Below are positions 14,695-58,832 of a stretch of DNA of 64,000 nt, in pieces. This DNA comes from Fibrobacter sp. UWR3 (GTDB taxonomy: Bacteria; Fibrobacterota; Fibrobacteria; Fibrobacterales; Fibrobacteraceae). The stretch is from NCBI RefSeq assembly GCF_900143055.1, contig NZ_FRCW01000013.1, positions 1 to 64,000 of the forward strand, given 5' to 3'. Both the position numbers and the translations under genes were made by a program. The notes beneath the pieces were generated by a model, which had not been told where the DNA came from, ran no database searches, and saw only the letters and a list, made by a program, of their open reading frames with translations. The stretch's first letter is position 1. Every line of letters starts with the position of its first letter.

Positions 14695-16713
14695 TTACCC
14701 GCGCTCGTACCGCACGTAGGCGAAGCGCCTGCTGTCGGGGGCCCAGGAATTCACGTTAATCGTCCCCTGCCCGCCAAAGAGCTTGAGGATAGTGCGGGGT
14801 TCGCTCCATCCTGTATCATCGCTGCCCGTCATCAGGCGGATTTCCACGTTCTTGTTGGGCACGTGTTCGCCAGGGCGCACGTCGCGCTCGTGGTAGGCAA
14901 GCATCACGACCTTCGTGCGGTCGGGCGAAATATGCGGGAACCAGGTGTTTGAGTGCGCATCGAACGTCATCTGCGTCTGCTCGGAACCGTCAGCCCTCAT
15001 GCGCCAAGCCTGCATGCGGCCCGTGCGTACGGAGTTGAACCAGATGTATTCGCCATCGCAATCGTATTCCGGGCCGTCGTTCAGTCCGAATGCGGTCGTG
15101 AGCTGCGTCTCGTTCCCGCCTGCAGCAGGAATCGTGTAGATGTCATATTCACCTGCACGTTCGGCGCAGTACGCGAGCATCTTTCCATCGGGAGTAACAC
15201 CGTGGAGGTAGCTCGGGGCAAGCGGGGTCACGAGTACCGGCATGCGGCCGTCAAAGAAAATCTTGTAGATGCGCGAAAGGCCGTCTTCCTTGGTGTGGTG
15301 ACTCACGTACAAGCCTTCGCCATCGGGAGAGAGCACGTGGTCGTTGTTGCAGTTGTCAACAAAGTAACTCGGGACCTCGGTAATCGCGCCCGTCTCTATC
15401 TCGTAACGGTAAATGCGGCCTTCGCTATTGTACGTGAGGAACTTCCCGTCGGCGCTCCAGTTGGGCGCCTCGATAACGCAGTCGAATTTCTTGAGCAACT
15501 TGGATTCGCCGGTCTCGATGTCATAAACTTCAAGGAACGACTTGTCGCCACTGCGGTTCCAGACTTCGCCCGGGCTGAGTTCGAACGGGTAGCTTACCCC
15601 CCATGCGGCGCGGAGGTTATCCATCTGCGTCATCATCTGCATGGTCTTGCTGTGGGGCATCTCGGGGCATTCCCTGAGCCCCTTCTCGAGGGCCGCCTTG
15701 CAGCCCAGCACCTCATATTCGTAGCAGTTCTCGATGCGGGGCGGCTTCACCGATTCCACAAGCGTCCCGGCAACATCGAACAGCTGGATTTCCACCATGT
15801 CGTTGAGGTTCTGCACACGGATAAAGCCCGCGGTTCCGTAGATGACGCCCTCGTTCTTGAGCGACGCCACCATCGACGTCTTGAGATGAGCGACCTGCCC
15901 GCCTGCATACACGAGGTCGATCCAGTCCGTCGCATCCACGCCCGTATGGAACTTGACACACTTCGTCTTCGTCTGCACGATATGATTCGCGACGCAGTCC
16001 TCACCCGATGTCATCCCCGCACATTCCGCACCCGATGTCATCCCCGCACATTCCGCACCCGATGTCATGCCCGCGCATTCCGCACCCGACGTCATCCCCG
16101 CGGAGGCGGGGATCTCCCTGCAAATTTCAGGATCAGTTAGGAAGATGTCCGCGAACGTCAAGCTGTAAATACCCAAATCCAGCAGCGCACCGCCCGCAAG
16201 TTCGGGCTTTTGCAGGCGCCCGATATGTGAAAGCGGCATCGAGAAGTCGGCCTCCACGCTTTCCACCTTGCCAATCTTCCCGGCCAGAATCCAGTCCTTC
16301 ACCATCTGCACCGCAGGCAGGAATCGGGTCCACATCGCCTCGCTCATGAACACGTCCTTCTCTTCGGCAAGGGCAATCACTTCGGATGCCATCAGGGCAT
16401 TCGCGGTAAAGGCCTTCTCCACGAGCAGGTTCCTGCCGTGTTCCAGACAAAGTAAAATGTTGTTGTAGTGTTCGGAATGCGGTGTCGCGATGTAGATCAA
16501 GTCCACCGCAGAATCCTGCGCGAGTTCCTCGTAACTGCCGTATGCGCGACCGAACCCGTAATCATCGGCAAACTTTTTTGCCTTGTCAAGCGTGCGCGAA
16601 GCCACCGCGTAGCATTCCACGCCCATACCGCGTTTTTCGAGAGTCTTGACCGCAGCGGCCATCTTCGTGGCGATATGGCCACACCCGAGAATTGCAAATT
16701 TCAGGACCTTCAT
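14695..16713 (-). CDS. Fusion: Gfo/Idh/MocA oxidoreductase + TolB-like propeller
   Basis: A 672-residue protein. Residues 1-390 are a Gfo/Idh/MocA NAD(P)-dependent dehydrogenase: Rossmann start FAILGCGHIATKMA, then LIYIATPHSEHYNN and the EKAFTANA motif that carries the catalytic-site lysine. It ends in the typical MTQMDNLRAAWGVSYPFE. Residues about 400-672 are WD/TolB-like propeller blades (APNWSADGKFLTYNS, LSPDGEGLYVS, ISPDRTKVVMLAY). No signal peptide is present, so it is cytoplasmic. The start at 16713 follows AGAGGAAC. Inside the dehydrogenase half is an in-frame block of 9-residue repeats (AGMTSGAEC) derived from a palindromic element at 16002-16115. The substrate is probably a sugar or uronate, given the adjacent pectin genes (inference). 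Confidence 0.8.
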   Translation of the reverse strand: MKVLKFAILGCGHIATKMAAAVKTLEKRGMGVECYAVASRTLDKAKKFADDYGFGRAYGSYEELAQDSAVDLIYIATPHSEHYNNILLCLEHGRNLLVEKAFTANALMASEVIALAEEKDVFMSEAMWTRFLPAVQMVKDWILAGKIGKVESVEADFSMPLSHIGRLQKPELAGGALLDLGIYSLTFADIFLTDPEICREIPASAGMTSGAECAGMTSGAECAGMTSGAECAGMTSGEDCVANHIVQTKTKCVKFHTGVDATDWIDLVYAGGQVAHLKTSMVASLKNEGVIYGTAGFIRVQNLNDMVEIQLFDVAGTLVESVKPPRIENCYEYEVLGCKAALEKGLRECPEMPHSKTMQMMTQMDNLRAAWGVSYPFELSPGEVWNRSGDKSFLEVYDIETGESKLLKKFDCVIEAPNWSADGKFLTYNSEGRIYRYEIETGAITEVPSYFVDNCNNDHVLSPDGEGLYVSHHTKEDGLSRIYKIFFDGRMPVLVTPLAPSYLHGVTPDGKMLAYCAERAGEYDIYTIPAAGGNETQLTTAFGLNDGPEYDCDGEYIWFNSVRTGRMQAWRMRADGSEQTQMTFDAHSNTWFPHISPDRTKVVMLAYHERDVRPGEHVPNKNVEIRLMTGSDDTGWSEPRTILKLFGGQGTINVNSWAPDSRRFAYVRYERG
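16002..16115 (-). repeat. 27-bp tandem repeat with palindromic element inside coding sequence
   Basis: Units at 16002-16028, 16029-16055 and 16056-16082 are nearly identical 27-mers. A fourth partial unit from 16083 runs into a palindrome at 16091-16115 (GTCATCCCCGC, a GAGG-type loop, GCGGGGATCT). Each unit encodes nine residues, giving repeated AGMTSGAEC after EIPAS. The same palindrome, with a different tandem unit, occurs between genes at 37010-37091. Confidence 0.9.
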
Positions 16714-20983: not shown

Positions 20984-21892
20984 TTATTCGCCGAAAACGA
21001 ACTTTACGTACAAGTTAAATAACTGCTCACCCCACAGGTACATGAGCGGCGCCGCCACCGCAAGGAACGGCCCGAAGGGAATCTGGCCCGAGGTCTCGGC
21101 AGCATCCTGGCCAGCGACATCCTGGCCAGCGGCATCCTGGCCAGCGGCATTGCGACGAGCGGCAATCTTGCCATAGGGCACCATCACGACAATCCCGAGA
21201 ATAGCGGCCACAATCAGCGTCTCGACCGCGCCCGTCACGCCCATCAAGGCACCATAACCCGCAAGGAGCTTCACGTCGCCGAACCCCATGGCATCCTTCT
21301 TCAGGAGCTTTGTCGCAGTCCAGCCCACCAGGTAGAGCCCGCCACCCGCAACAACCGCCCCGAGCAGGCTCTGGAACGGAGTGACACCGCCGGGAATAAT
21401 CGAAATCAGGAGGCCCGCAACAATCCCGCCCACCGAGATGGAATCGGGAATCAACTTGTACTTGCAATCGATGGCGCATACCGGGTATGCCCCGAGCAAA
21501 AGCCAGAACATCGCGATCGCCGACGCCCACACCGCGGGCTCAGTGACCGGCGCCGTGAAAAATGCGGCCGACACGGGCACGCCGCCTATCACCGCGACAG
21601 CCGCAAACAGCGCAACCGCCCCAAGCAAACCGCAGAGAGCCTCCCCAATCGGGTAAATCACGCTGATGGGTTGCTTGCAGCAGGCGCTCTTCCCGCGGAG
21701 CCATAGCCACCCCACGATAGGAAGATTGTAACGGATAGGGATATGCTTCTTGCACAGCGGGCAGTGGCTCGGCGGGTTTATGAGCGAAATCCCGCGAGGC
21801 ATGCGGTAAACAATCACGTTGTAGAAGCTCCCGACGCACGCGCCGAGGGCAAAAAACACCAAAAGCCAGTACCAGAGGGGGATTTCCTGCAT
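20984..21892 (-). CDS. Prepilin peptidase (A24A)
   Basis: A membrane aspartic peptidase that cleaves and N-methylates type IV pilin or pseudopilin precursors. It has the N-terminal zinc-site cysteines (CPLC ... CCK), several membrane helices, and both catalytic aspartates: DCKYKLIPD and the GFGDVKLL (GxGD) motif. Near residue 235-260 is a repeated pentapeptide AGQDA/AGQDV encoded by three 15-bp repeats at 21102-21146, in a loop before the last helix. The start at 21892 follows TGAGG by 6 bases; an upstream ATG at 21910 has no site. No pilin or secretion genes are adjacent. Confidence 0.9.
   Translation of the reverse strand: MQEIPLWYWLLVFFALGACVGSFYNVIVYRMPRGISLINPPSHCPLCKKHIPIRYNLPIVGWLWLRGKSACCKQPISVIYPIGEALCGLLGAVALFAAVAVIGGVPVSAAFFTAPVTEPAVWASAIAMFWLLLGAYPVCAIDCKYKLIPDSISVGGIVAGLLISIIPGGVTPFQSLLGAVVAGGGLYLVGWTATKLLKKDAMGFGDVKLLAGYGALMGVTGAVETLIVAAILGIVVMVPYGKIAARRNAAGQDAAGQDVAGQDAAETSGQIPFGPFLAVAAPLMYLWGEQLFNLYVKFVFGE
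21102..21146 (-). repeat. Three 15-bp in-frame repeats in prepilin peptidase
   Basis: Units at 21102-21116, 21117-21131 and 21132-21146 share CATCCTGGCCAGCG and differ only in the first base. On the coding strand they give AGQDA/AGQDV/AGQDA. They extend a cytoplasmic or periplasmic loop by 15 residues without breaking the frame. Confidence 0.9.
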
Positions 21893-37009: not shown

Positions 37010-37110
37010 AGATCCCCGCCTGCGCGGGGATGACGAGAAGGGTCGCGGGGATGACGAGATGGGTCCCGGGGATGACGAGAAGGGTCGCGGGGGAGGCCTC
37101 CCCCCCCCCC
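37010..37110 (-). repeat. Palindromic element, 21-bp tandem units and C11 tract
   Basis: 37010-37034 is the palindrome AGATCCCCGC-CTGC-GCGGGGAT-GAC, on the minus strand GTCATCCCCGC...GCGGGGATCT. Its right end is repeated as 21-bp units at 37029-37049, 37050-37070 and 37071-37091 (GATGACGAGAAGGGTCGCGGG with few changes). A run of 11 C (37100-37110) follows. Confidence 0.85.
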
Positions 37111-37133: not shown

Positions 37134-37158
37134 TTCTAAGTTCTAAGTTCTAAGTTCT
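37134..37158. repeat. TTCTAAG heptamer repeat
   Basis: Three perfect tandem copies of TTCTAAG at 37134-37154 plus a partial TTCT, 67 bp before the secDF start. Confidence 0.85.
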
Positions 37159-37224: not shown

Positions 37225-39867
37225 ATGAACAAACATAAATTCGGCATGCGAGAATTCTTCATTCTCCTCGTCATTGCACTCTCGGCCTACACGGTTTGGC
37301 CCTCTATTCAGGTTCACTCCAAGAAGGGTGACGAAAAGAAGGCCTTCCTCAAGGAAAATCCGAAACTTTCTTCCAGGTCCATCAATTTCGGCCTCGACCT
37401 CGCCGGCGGTACGAGCATTACGCTCCAGATCGACAAGTCCGGTCTCAAGGAAGACGACGATATCCAGGACATCCAGAAGCAGTCCCTCGAAATCATCCGT
37501 AACCGCGTTGACCAGTACGGTCTTTCCGAACCGCAGATTTCGCCCTCCGGCGACGACCGTATTTTGGTCGAACTTGCCGGCGTAGACGATTCTACCGCAA
37601 AGGCCCTCGTGGGTTCCACCGCAAAGCTTGAATTCAAGATTCTCGCCGAGGCGGAAAAGTTCAATACGGTAACGACGCTCCTGAACCAGTACCTGACCCG
37701 CCAGACCACCGACGTGGCCAGCGATTCTACGGTTGCCGACTCCGCCGCCGCGGATTCTACGGTCGCCAAGGTCGATTCTGCCAAGGATACCGCCAAGGCC
37801 CTCTCCGACGAAGAACTGCTCGGCGGTTCCGTCCAGACGGCAAAGGCTGAAGATTCCACCGTTTCTGACTCCGCCGCCGAAACCGTACCGGCATCCGAGG
37901 TCGGCAAGGCTTTCAGCGATTACTACCTCCAGTTCGGCAACGGCGGGTTCATCGCCGAAGAGAACATCGAGAAGGTCAAGAAGATTCTTGAACTCGAAGG
38001 CGTCAAGAAGCTCATCCCGCGTGACGTCGCCTTTGCCTTCGGTAGCGGCCTCGAAAAGATTAACCGCGATTCCCCGGTCAAGGCCAAGCGCCTCTACCTC
38101 CTCAAGCGTCGTGCAGAAATGGGTGGCGACGACATCGTCGATGCCCGCCCGGAACGTGTTGCTGACGGTGTGAGCGCCGGTGAAGTTGCCGTCAAGCTCC
38201 GCTTCGGCGGCATCGGCCCCAAGAAGTTCTCCGCCGTTACGGCCGCGAACATCAACAAGCAGATGGCCATCGTGCTCGACAACCAGGTCATTAGCGCCCC
38301 GGTCATCAGGGATCGCATCCCGAACGGCGACGCCCAGATTACCGGCCTCGACGACATGGCCGAAGCCAACCGCCTCGCCGTCGTGCTCCGCGCGGGTGCC
38401 CTCAAGGCCCCGATGAAGATTATCGAAAGCCGCAGCGTGGGTGCCACCCTCGGTGAAGAGAACATCTCCCAGGGCTTCGGTTCCGGCGCTATCGGTCTCA
38501 TCATCTGCTTGCTCTTCATGGTGGCCTACTACCGCCTGGGCGGCCTTATCGCAAGCCTCGGTATGATTATCAACACGCTCGTGACCGCCGCCGTGATGTC
38601 GCTCTTCAACGCGACCCTCACGCTCCCCGGTATCGCAGGCTTCATCCTCGTCGTGGGTATGTCTCTCGACGCGAACGTGATTATCTACGAACGCATCCGT
38701 GAAGAACTCAAGAACGGCCTTACCGCCCGCGCTGCCGTGGCGAAGGGTTACGAACGTGCATTTACCGCGATTCTCGACTCCAACCTCACCACCGTGCTTA
38801 CCGGCCTTATCCTCTACAAGATTGGTACCGGCTCCGTGAAGGGTTTCGGTCTTACGCTTACTATCGGTATCCTCACCTCGCTCTTCTGCGCCATCACCGT
38901 GACCCGTGCAGTGCTCGACTGGAAACTCGCCAAGCGCGACGCCACCACGCTCTCCATCGGTAACGGCATCAAGGCCATCAACGAGGCGAACCTCCAGATT
39001 ATCCCGCACCGCAAGCGTTTCGGCCTCATTTCGACCATTCTCATCATCGCTTCCATCGCATGCATCGCCATCAAGGGATTCGACTTCAGCATCGACTTCA
39101 CCGGCGGCCAGGTCTACACCATCCAGTACCAGGACAACGCCAAGCACGAGACCGACCTGAACAAGGCCCTCTCCGCGGCAGGCATCTCCGGCACGAAGGT
39201 CCGTTCTCTGGGCGGTACTTCCGCGAACTCCTACCAGGTGAGCCTCCGTACCGACGACGCTAACTTCGAAACCACCATGGCCAAGGCCTTCGAGGCCGCC
39301 GGCCAGAAGTGCGAAATCGTTGCCAAGGACACCGTGGGTCCGACCATCGGTGCAGAACTCCGCTTCAACGCTATCTTGTCCGTAATCCTCGCCTGGCTCG
39401 GAATCCTGCTCTACGTGTGGTTCCGTTTCGGCAAGTTCGGTCTTGGCTTCGGCGTGGCCGCAGTGCTCGGCCTCGTGCACGATACCATCATCACGCTCGG
39501 CTTCATCTCGGCATTCAGCCTCTCCTTCGACGGCGCCCTCATCGCATCGCTCCTGACAATGATTGGTTACTCCGTGAACGATACCATCGTGAACTTCGAC
39601 CGTATCCGTGAAAACACGAGCGTCTACGGTTCCGCGAACTTCGGCGAAACCATCAACCGCTCCTTGAACCAGTGCTTCAGCCGTACCATGGTGACCTCCC
39701 TCACGACTTTGTTCGTGTGCGTGATCCTCGCCGTGATGGGCGGTTCCTCCATCCGCGACTTCGGCCTCGTGCAGTGCTTCGGTATCCTCATCGGTACCTA
39801 CTCCTCCGTGTGCATCTGCTCTCCGATTGTTCTGTGGTGGTCCAACCGCTTCAAGAAGGGCGTGTAA
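37225..39867 (+). CDS. secDF: SecDF fused protein translocase subunit
   Basis: An 880-residue inner-membrane protein joining SecD and SecF, which uses the proton gradient to drive late steps of Sec export. The SecD part has NFGLDLAGGTSITLQID, the P1 periplasmic domain and VGATLGEENISQGFGSGAIG, and ends in VGMSLDANVIIYERIREEL. The SecF part starts near residue 590 with DFSIDFTGGQVYTIQYQ and ends in GYSVNDTIVNFDRIREN. In the periplasmic region, about residues 155-235, is an Ala/Asp/Ser/Thr insertion (DSTVADSAAADSTVAKVDSA) like the linker in YidC. Codon choice (CGT, GGT, ATC) suggests strong expression. A terminator follows at 39931. Confidence 0.96.
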   Translation: MNKHKFGMREFFILLVIALSAYTVWPSIQVHSKKGDEKKAFLKENPKLSSRSINFGLDLAGGTSITLQIDKSGLKEDDDIQDIQKQSLEIIRNRVDQYGLSEPQISPSGDDRILVELAGVDDSTAKALVGSTAKLEFKILAEAEKFNTVTTLLNQYLTRQTTDVASDSTVADSAAADSTVAKVDSAKDTAKALSDEELLGGSVQTAKAEDSTVSDSAAETVPASEVGKAFSDYYLQFGNGGFIAEENIEKVKKILELEGVKKLIPRDVAFAFGSGLEKINRDSPVKAKRLYLLKRRAEMGGDDIVDARPERVADGVSAGEVAVKLRFGGIGPKKFSAVTAANINKQMAIVLDNQVISAPVIRDRIPNGDAQITGLDDMAEANRLAVVLRAGALKAPMKIIESRSVGATLGEENISQGFGSGAIGLIICLLFMVAYYRLGGLIASLGMIINTLVTAAVMSLFNATLTLPGIAGFILVVGMSLDANVIIYERIREELKNGLTARAAVAKGYERAFTAILDSNLTTVLTGLILYKIGTGSVKGFGLTLTIGILTSLFCAITVTRAVLDWKLAKRDATTLSIGNGIKAINEANLQIIPHRKRFGLISTILIIASIACIAIKGFDFSIDFTGGQVYTIQYQDNAKHETDLNKALSAAGISGTKVRSLGGTSANSYQVSLRTDDANFETTMAKAFEAAGQKCEIVAKDTVGPTIGAELRFNAILSVILAWLGILLYVWFRFGKFGLGFGVAAVLGLVHDTIITLGFISAFSLSFDGALIASLLTMIGYSVNDTIVNFDRIRENTSVYGSANFGETINRSLNQCFSRTMVTSLTTLFVCVILAVMGGSSIRDFGLVQCFGILIGTYSSVCICSPIVLWWSNRFKKGV

Positions 39868-40027: not shown

Positions 40028-40960
40028 ATGCTCAAGTATTACAAAATCGAATCGGGCCGCATTGTTGGCGCCCCGAACGAAGATGCGGCTGACATCGTCA
40101 TCATGGGCTCCCTCAGCCAGGAACAGCGCAGCGTCCTGGTCAAGGAATACGAGATAACCGAGCATACCATCGCCTCCGCATTCGACTCCGACGAGCTTTC
40201 CCGTATCGAGTACGACGACGACTTCACGACCATCGTGTTCAAGAAGCCGAAGAACTATTCCGCCGAGGACAACTTTCAGTTCCGCGTGGAATCCTTCGGC
40301 ATATTCATCTTCAAGGACTGGGTGCTGCTCCTTACCGACAGCGACATCCCCGTGATGGACGAACGCCGCTTCTCGAAAATCGACAGCCTCAACACGTTCG
40401 TGCTCCGCGTACTGAGTTTCGCGATATCTCACTTTAACGAACACCTGCGCATTATCAACCGCATCAACGACGATTTGGAACTGCGCCTCAACACCTCGAT
40501 GGAAAACAAGTACCTGCTCAGCATGTTCAGCCTGAACAAGGGCTTGATTTACTACGTGAGCGCACTCAACAGCAACGACACGCTCCTGAAGAAACTCCAG
40601 ATGGGCAGGAGCCTCAACTGGACCGAAGCCGAACGTGAGCTGCTCGAAGATATCCAGATTGAGAACGGCCAGAGCCTGCAGCAGGCAAACATCTACGCAA
40701 ACATCTTGACATCCATGATGGATGCGCGCGCAAGCGTCATCAACAACAACGTGAACCAGCTGATGAAGAACTTGACCATCGTGACGATCTCGATATCGCT
40801 CCCGACGTTCTTCGCTAGTTTGTTCGGAATGAACGTGAAGTTGCCCTTCGGCATGAACGGCGACGCGCTCACCGGCTCGGGCATAGCCTTCTGGGGCATC
40901 ATCGCCGTCTGTATCCTTTCTGTGATTGTGTTCCTCGCCTTCTGGATGCGCAGAAAATAA
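40028..40960 (+). CDS. corA: CorA-family magnesium/divalent cation transporter
   Basis: A 310-residue CorA channel-type transporter. The cytoplasmic N-terminal alpha/beta domain (about 1-240) is followed by a long stalk helix and two C-terminal membrane helices. The family GMN signature is at SLFGMNVKLPFGMNG, the loop at the pore mouth. The C-terminus ends in basic MRRK. The start at 40028 is set by AAAGGGGG four bases upstream; longer upstream frames run through the secDF terminator and are not used. It is transcribed alone from the promoter at 39972. The metal could be Mg2+, Co2+ or Zn2+. Confidence 0.93.
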   Translation: MLKYYKIESGRIVGAPNEDAADIVIMGSLSQEQRSVLVKEYEITEHTIASAFDSDELSRIEYDDDFTTIVFKKPKNYSAEDNFQFRVESFGIFIFKDWVLLLTDSDIPVMDERRFSKIDSLNTFVLRVLSFAISHFNEHLRIINRINDDLELRLNTSMENKYLLSMFSLNKGLIYYVSALNSNDTLLKKLQMGRSLNWTEAERELLEDIQIENGQSLQQANIYANILTSMMDARASVINNNVNQLMKNLTIVTISISLPTFFASLFGMNVKLPFGMNGDALTGSGIAFWGIIAVCILSVIVFLAFWMRRK

Positions 40961-41018
40961 TGTGAAATGTGGAATGTGTAATGTGAAATGAACAATCTCT
41001 CATTTCACACTTCACATC
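40959..41018. repeat. AATGTG-type minisatellite hairpin, copy 1
   Basis: AATGTGAAATGTGGAATGTG runs on as TAATGTGAAATG (40959-40990). After a 10-nt loop, CATTTCACACTTCACAT (41001-41017) pairs with it. It lies after corA, before the convergent polyprenyl synthase end. The same sequence family is at 58759-58832. Confidence 0.8.
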
Positions 41019-58758: not shown

Positions 58759-58832
58759 AATGTGTGATGTGTAATGTGTGATGTGTGATGCGAAATATCT
58801 AATTCCACATTTCACATTACACATTCCACATT
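58759..58832. repeat. AATGTG-type minisatellite hairpin, copy 2
   Basis: Left arm AATGTGTGATGTGTAATGTG and following units (58759-58795) face right arm ATTCCACATTTCACATTACA and following (58802-58832). The right arm is the reverse complement of the copy 1 arm at 40959. It lies between DUF3108 and purE. Confidence 0.8.

Follow-up and report, generated by a model that had tools for sequence, protein, structure and literature searches.

How does a palindromic repeat of the intergenic kind come to be translated inside a folded oxidoreductase, and does the enzyme survive it? Both questions are raised by a gene of Fibrobacter sp. UWR3 located in the window, that is, the whole stretch of 64,000 nucleotides analysed here, which belongs to a genome of 3.55 Mb (20 contigs, 100% complete). 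In the encoded fusion protein, Pfam places GFO_IDH_MocA at residues 4-124, GFO_IDH_MocA_C3 at 135-298 and PD40/TolB-like matches at the C-terminus; PF01408 and PF22725, both above cut-off, indicate the Rossmann and the C-terminal α/β domains of a Gfo/Idh/MocA oxidoreductase. The repeat (REP) and its tandem units fall inside the second of these domains. The fold of the N-terminal half resembles that of dimeric dihydrodiol dehydrogenase 2o48 (Foldseek TM 0.85, by target length) and the fold of the C-terminal half that of the putative TolB 2ojh. These two are separate proteins without the insert, whereas the host protein carries both halves fused, and 2o48 has a short connection at the site of the insert. 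Full-length named orthologues of the fusion all come from Fibrobacter or Fibrobacterales. The oxidoreductase-propeller fusion is shared among Fibrobacter, with matches in Clostridia, Bacteroides and Paenibacillus spanning the propeller half only; in some congeners (G004, G027 and G035) just the oxidoreductase half is seen, in a short open frame. The features of the locus, and of a related one in the window, are as follows.

14695-16713, minus strand: Gfo/Idh/MocA plus TolB-like fusion gene (P0001), 672 amino acids; N-terminal half oxidoreductase, C-terminal half beta-propeller.
16091-16114, minus strand: complete REP, CGTC-1-type in sequence form, GATCCCCGCCTCCGCGGGGATGAC (reverse complement GTCATCCCCGC GGAG GCGGGGATC), read as IPASAGMT.
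16064-16090, minus strand: first 27-bp half-REP unit, spacer plus GCGGGCATGAC, 9 codons.
16037-16063, minus strand: second 27-bp half-REP unit, spacer plus GCGGGGATGAC.
16010-16036, minus strand: third 27-bp half-REP unit, spacer plus GCGGGGATGAC.
15994-16113, minus strand: low-confidence loop, predicted as disordered by AlphaFold, residues 201-240, between helix 170-198 and strand 245-254.
Peptide stretch of the repeat-bearing loop in the host protein: IPASAGMTSGAEC.
37011-37034, plus strand: intergenic REP of the same family, core 37012-37031, in the gap before an ORF at 37225.
37035-37092, plus strand: half-REP units of 21 bp next to the tag of the intergenic REP, two complete, the third ending in GCGGGG of the flank.

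An earlier note on this DNA had placed three 27-bp units and a palindrome inside the dehydrogenase half, in an open frame, and this was borne out. Tandem Repeats Finder reports period 27 at 15998-16101 (3.9 copies, 93% matches), the palindrome core ATCCCCGCGGAGGCGGGGAT occupies 16094-16113, and the minus-strand frame runs through REP and units with no stop, giving EIPASAGMTSGAEC-AGMTSGAEC-AGMTSGAEC-AGMTSGEDC. The 27-bp unit is not unrelated DNA: it consists of the REP's own tag-side arm, GCGGGGATGAC, and a 16-nt spacer. The addition had been put at about 40 residues; the net gain is about 41 over short-loop forms and about 32 over the nearest REP-free relative, L135. The same palindrome had also been reported between genes near 37010 with different units, and it is indeed present there, followed by units of 21 bp. 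The window holds four palindrome matches (up to 3 mismatches) against 0.59 expected, and four were reached in no shuffle. Other tandem repeats of the window are heptameric (TTCTAAG, AATGTGA and ATGTGTG, at 37134-37158, 40959-40990 and 58760-58790) or of 15 bp (GCATCCTGGCCAGCG, 3.3 copies, 21102-21164, within a listed minus-strand ORF).

Genome-wide, the pattern GATCCCCGC-CTNC-GCGGGGATGAC is matched at least 111 times when up to 3 mismatches are allowed and its reversed control not once, and the copies lie mostly between genes. On the other strand the element reads as a TGTC or CGTC tag, an 8-bp stem starting with AT and a 4-nt GNAG loop (ATCCCCGC-GNAG-GCGGGGAT). Among 100 copies the tag is TGTC in 66, CGTC in 32 (the form of both compared window copies, 16091 and 37011) and AGTC in 2, and compensated stem pairs are found (CCCC 64, CCTC 19, GCCC 8, TCCC 5, others). 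The CGTC-1 class described by Di Nocera et al. 2013 (PMC3733652), a paper whose main text makes no mention of Fibrobacter, has dRS3 from Neisseria and RPE-6 from Rickettsia conorii among its members and is marked by the same unpaired C/TGTC tag and 8-bp stem with initial AT and 4-nt loop; by tag, stem and loop, and as judged from its letters, the repeat is a CGTC-1-type REP. The post-stem tail is C-TCC in 32/100 and C-TTT in 24/100 of the Fibrobacter copies, that of CGTC-1 being mostly CCA. CGTC-1 REPs occur mainly as HH dimers (PMC3733652), an arrangement that does not prevail among the Fibrobacter copies, with arms in opposite orientation within 70 nt on the tag side in 4/100 and on the tail side in 8/100.

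The states of the site were compared in orthologues of the fusion drawn from genomes of the same genus, most of them metagenome assemblies, and from named GTDB records. The variable site is flanked by the conserved LLDLGIYSLTFAD helix and the strand that follows it. In REP-free close relatives the loop is either short, with 25-26 residues, or of the 'IC' kind, with 33-42. The loop measures 40 residues with a bare REP (L162, L052), 49 with REP and one unit (L137, L048), 58 with two units (L136, L138) and 67 with the three units of the window gene, so that the length of REP-bearing loops follows 40+9n, with n from 0 to 3. The frame is unbroken in all REP-bearing orthologues inspected, and in L047 and L153 another palindrome occupies the place of the REP centre. 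A gene tree built without the loop has no root and is weak in places. It groups the REP alleles within a single sub-clade of 20 rows (support 96/90), where they require at least 4 changes; the tree is compatible with one gain and several losses, with interspecies recombination or with repeated gain, which it does not tell apart. The REP-free 'IC' loops (L135, L143), close in length to the bare-REP form, might be eroded REPs instead of the state before insertion. No target duplication was found at the REP insertion.

The occurrence of orthologues without REP, with a bare REP and with one to three units upholds the proposal of a repeat from between genes that invaded a folded enzyme and was amplified there. 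Very probably, then, a CGTC-1-type REP was inserted in frame into a surface loop of the Gfo/Idh/MocA-TolB fusion in one branch of Fibrobacter. In the mechanism that we propose, the REP would have entered the loop by some copying event, and slippage of the replication machinery between the direct copies of the arm, perhaps aided by the hairpin, would add and remove 27-bp units. The alleles now seen would be the survivors, namely in-frame events (steps in multiples of three) within a disordered loop.

Whether the enzyme tolerates its insert or was killed by it had been left undecided, and the first alternative is the one supported. Some 30-40 extra residues might damage a folded domain, and the gene might be a decaying pseudogene. 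Against this, the frame is intact in the REP-bearing orthologues, and dN/dS on both sides of the loop is 0.039-0.122 for pairs with REP-bearing genes vs 0.059-0.089 for REP-free pairs; because these values stay at about 0.04-0.12 before and after the loop, the host gene behaves as functional. The insert also sits where AlphaFold (33 sequences, mean pLDDT 80) predicts disorder, with pLDDT of 24-34 over residues 201-240 in surroundings that are mostly confident, the helix continuing to residue 198 and the strand starting at 245. The sequence match to 2o48 is interrupted at the same loop, between chain residues 187 and 203. Inactivation is accordingly given very little weight, and structure prediction together with dN/dS supports a tolerated, predicted disordered loop. 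The inserted peptide probably does nothing by itself.

Also very improbable is the idea that selection maintains the block as a conserved part of the domain, such as a binding loop, which resembles a REP by convergence. Cysteines do recur at the unit ends (AEC, GDC, EDC) and the loop is kept in several species. However, the loop DNA is a perfect copy of the dispersed palindrome, silent positions included, near relatives have from 0 to 3 units, and the relative represented by L047/L153 has exchanged the palindrome centre for another palindrome; nor do distant genera keep the insert as a domain element, an outcome named beforehand as refuting. An assembly artefact or a collapsed repeat is very improbable too: tandem units can be miscounted in short-read assemblies, but several separate assemblies have a REP at the same site, with unit numbers that differ and point differences peculiar to single units, which speaks against it.

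The growth of the element on one side is not peculiar to this gene. Direct half-REP repeats, composed of the tag-side arm and a spacer of 4-18 nt, occur in 29/61 Fibrobacter genomes, while the mirror-image arrangement beside the tail of the REP occurs in 1/61. A period of 20-22 bp is given by 96 of the 115 distinct half-REP spacers; the 27-bp period is found in the Gfo/Idh fusion gene and in the L006 gene (weak MA_2-peptidase and PD40 matches), and a 21-bp period in the L093 glycosyltransferase gene, where it is read as CHPREFN-type repeats. A complete REP adjoins 45 of 51 half-REP arrays. The units multiply in place, because spacers are 80% identical between neighbours in one array and 34% identical across arrays. 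Duplication of the arm with its following flank was considered as the origin of the arrays; it suits the window gene, where final flank and spacer are 81% alike, but fails at the majority of loci, the flank-spacer likeness over array loci averaging 47% vs 31% for random flanks. One-sided and evenly spaced half-REP arrays limit the models by which CGTC REPs can be thought to spread.

Other genes of the host genome are affected as well, 15 of 100 sampled REP copies being intragenic. This is far rarer than under random placement (p ~1e-62, with an assumed coding fraction of 0.88), and intragenic copies were called by open frames together with Pfam, codon scoring alone being too weak. Among the REP-bearing genes are those for HrpA (three elements), TilS, UvrB (two), a biotin/lipoate ligase-family protein, a tetrapyrrole methylase/HemD fusion, a U32 peptidase-family protein, a THUMP-like methyltransferase, the L006 protein (two) and a GT2 glycosyltransferase (L093:1329-2285), in which one REP has three 21-bp half-REP units and a second lies near the C-terminus. 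The REP can be read without a stop in five of its six frames, and four of these are found in genes. When TilS and HrpA are matched by sequence to homologues of solved structure, the match is gapped or broken at most REP segments. In other Fibrobacter species the HrpA and TilS loops contain REPs in other frames, RRETKDERRE heptamer arrays and other dispersed repeats; heptamer arrays, for instance of GACGAAA, are translated in HrpA, TilS and UvrB loops of the genus.

Dispersed repeats are clearly enriched in the variable loops of TilS, where they make up 28% of the bases, vs 1.4% in shuffled sequence and 3.3% in the core (22/27 rows, p=0.0015). In aggregate they make up 15% of HrpA loops (1.4% shuffled, 4.5% core) and 17% of the Gfo fusion loop (0.7% shuffled, 3.2% core), the per-row test being not significant in either; an earlier run without shuffles had given 31-35% for HrpA and TilS. 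All these values were obtained with a repeat database that favours REPs because it was drawn around REP copies. There is about an even chance, in our judgement, that a few disordered loops of conserved enzymes (HrpA, TilS, UvrB and the Gfo/Idh fusion) are genus-wide sinks for several kinds of intergenic repeat with no kinship to each other, among them CGTC REPs, heptamer arrays and the ATCCTTCGACT..CTCAGGATGAC family, repeatedly entered and translated with a peptide that differs per species, and that REPs also grow one-sidedly, only the tag-side arm being copied at about two helical turns.

What placed the REPs is a separate matter. For GTAG REPs placement by a Y1/RAYT transposase has been proposed, RAYTs are tied to other REP classes (PMC3733652), and some Fibrobacter genomes encode a full-length PF01797 protein. 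A search for PF01797 in the 100%-complete host genome, the REP-richest among those searched, nevertheless found none, and PF01797-bearing congeners are not richer in REPs, with 3 in G005, 1 in G009 and 0 in G021. The element does not conform to the GTAG REP/REPIN-RAYT type, its tag being GTC and the Y1 genes of congeners having other hairpins; at the four Y1 transposase loci inspected in Fibrobacter (L131-L134), the nearby hairpins are unrelated to the GTC-tag REP. Such a transposase is thus an unlikely agent, while a past one, since lost, is a possible source of the REP placement. CGTC REPs have been described as having no dedicated transposase, and intragenic REPs as occurring (PMC3733652).

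Compared with known systems, the Fibrobacter element resembles CGTC-1 REPs (PMC3733652) in its C/TGTC tag, 8-bp AT-stem, 4-nt loop and dispersed high copy number, perhaps in its short tail, and in being mostly intergenic, sometimes intragenic and without a dedicated transposase. It differs from the CGTC-1 HH dimers in having few opposite partners and direct tag-side half-REP arrays with a 20-22 bp period. Inside ORFs of Rickettsia, Ogata et al. 2000 reported palindromic elements (RPEs), according to the summary in PMC10969869. Since intragenic REPs (PMC3733652) and RPEs (in that summary) have been described, the kind of event is already known. Among open-access papers, none on Fibrobacter REPs was found, and as far as that literature goes three things are new: the allelic ladder, the tag-sided half-REP arrays and the filling of the same loops with different repeats. 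Because the genus has one gene in empty, bare and stepwise-expanded forms, both the fitness effect of the REP and the process of its growth are directly testable. As the summary in PMC10969869 presents them, RPEs are likewise palindromic repeats set in frame in unrelated housekeeping genes, to which they add peptides; they are about 150 bp long and belong to an obligate intracellular genus, in contrast to the Fibrobacter element of 24 bp with its 27-bp units, and a ladder of unit numbers between species distinguishes Fibrobacter from the RPEs described there. Whether intergenic repeats, selfish or passive, supply proteins with new sequence has so far been argued mostly from Rickettsia, and Fibrobacter allows the question to be asked in bacteria without an obligate intracellular life.
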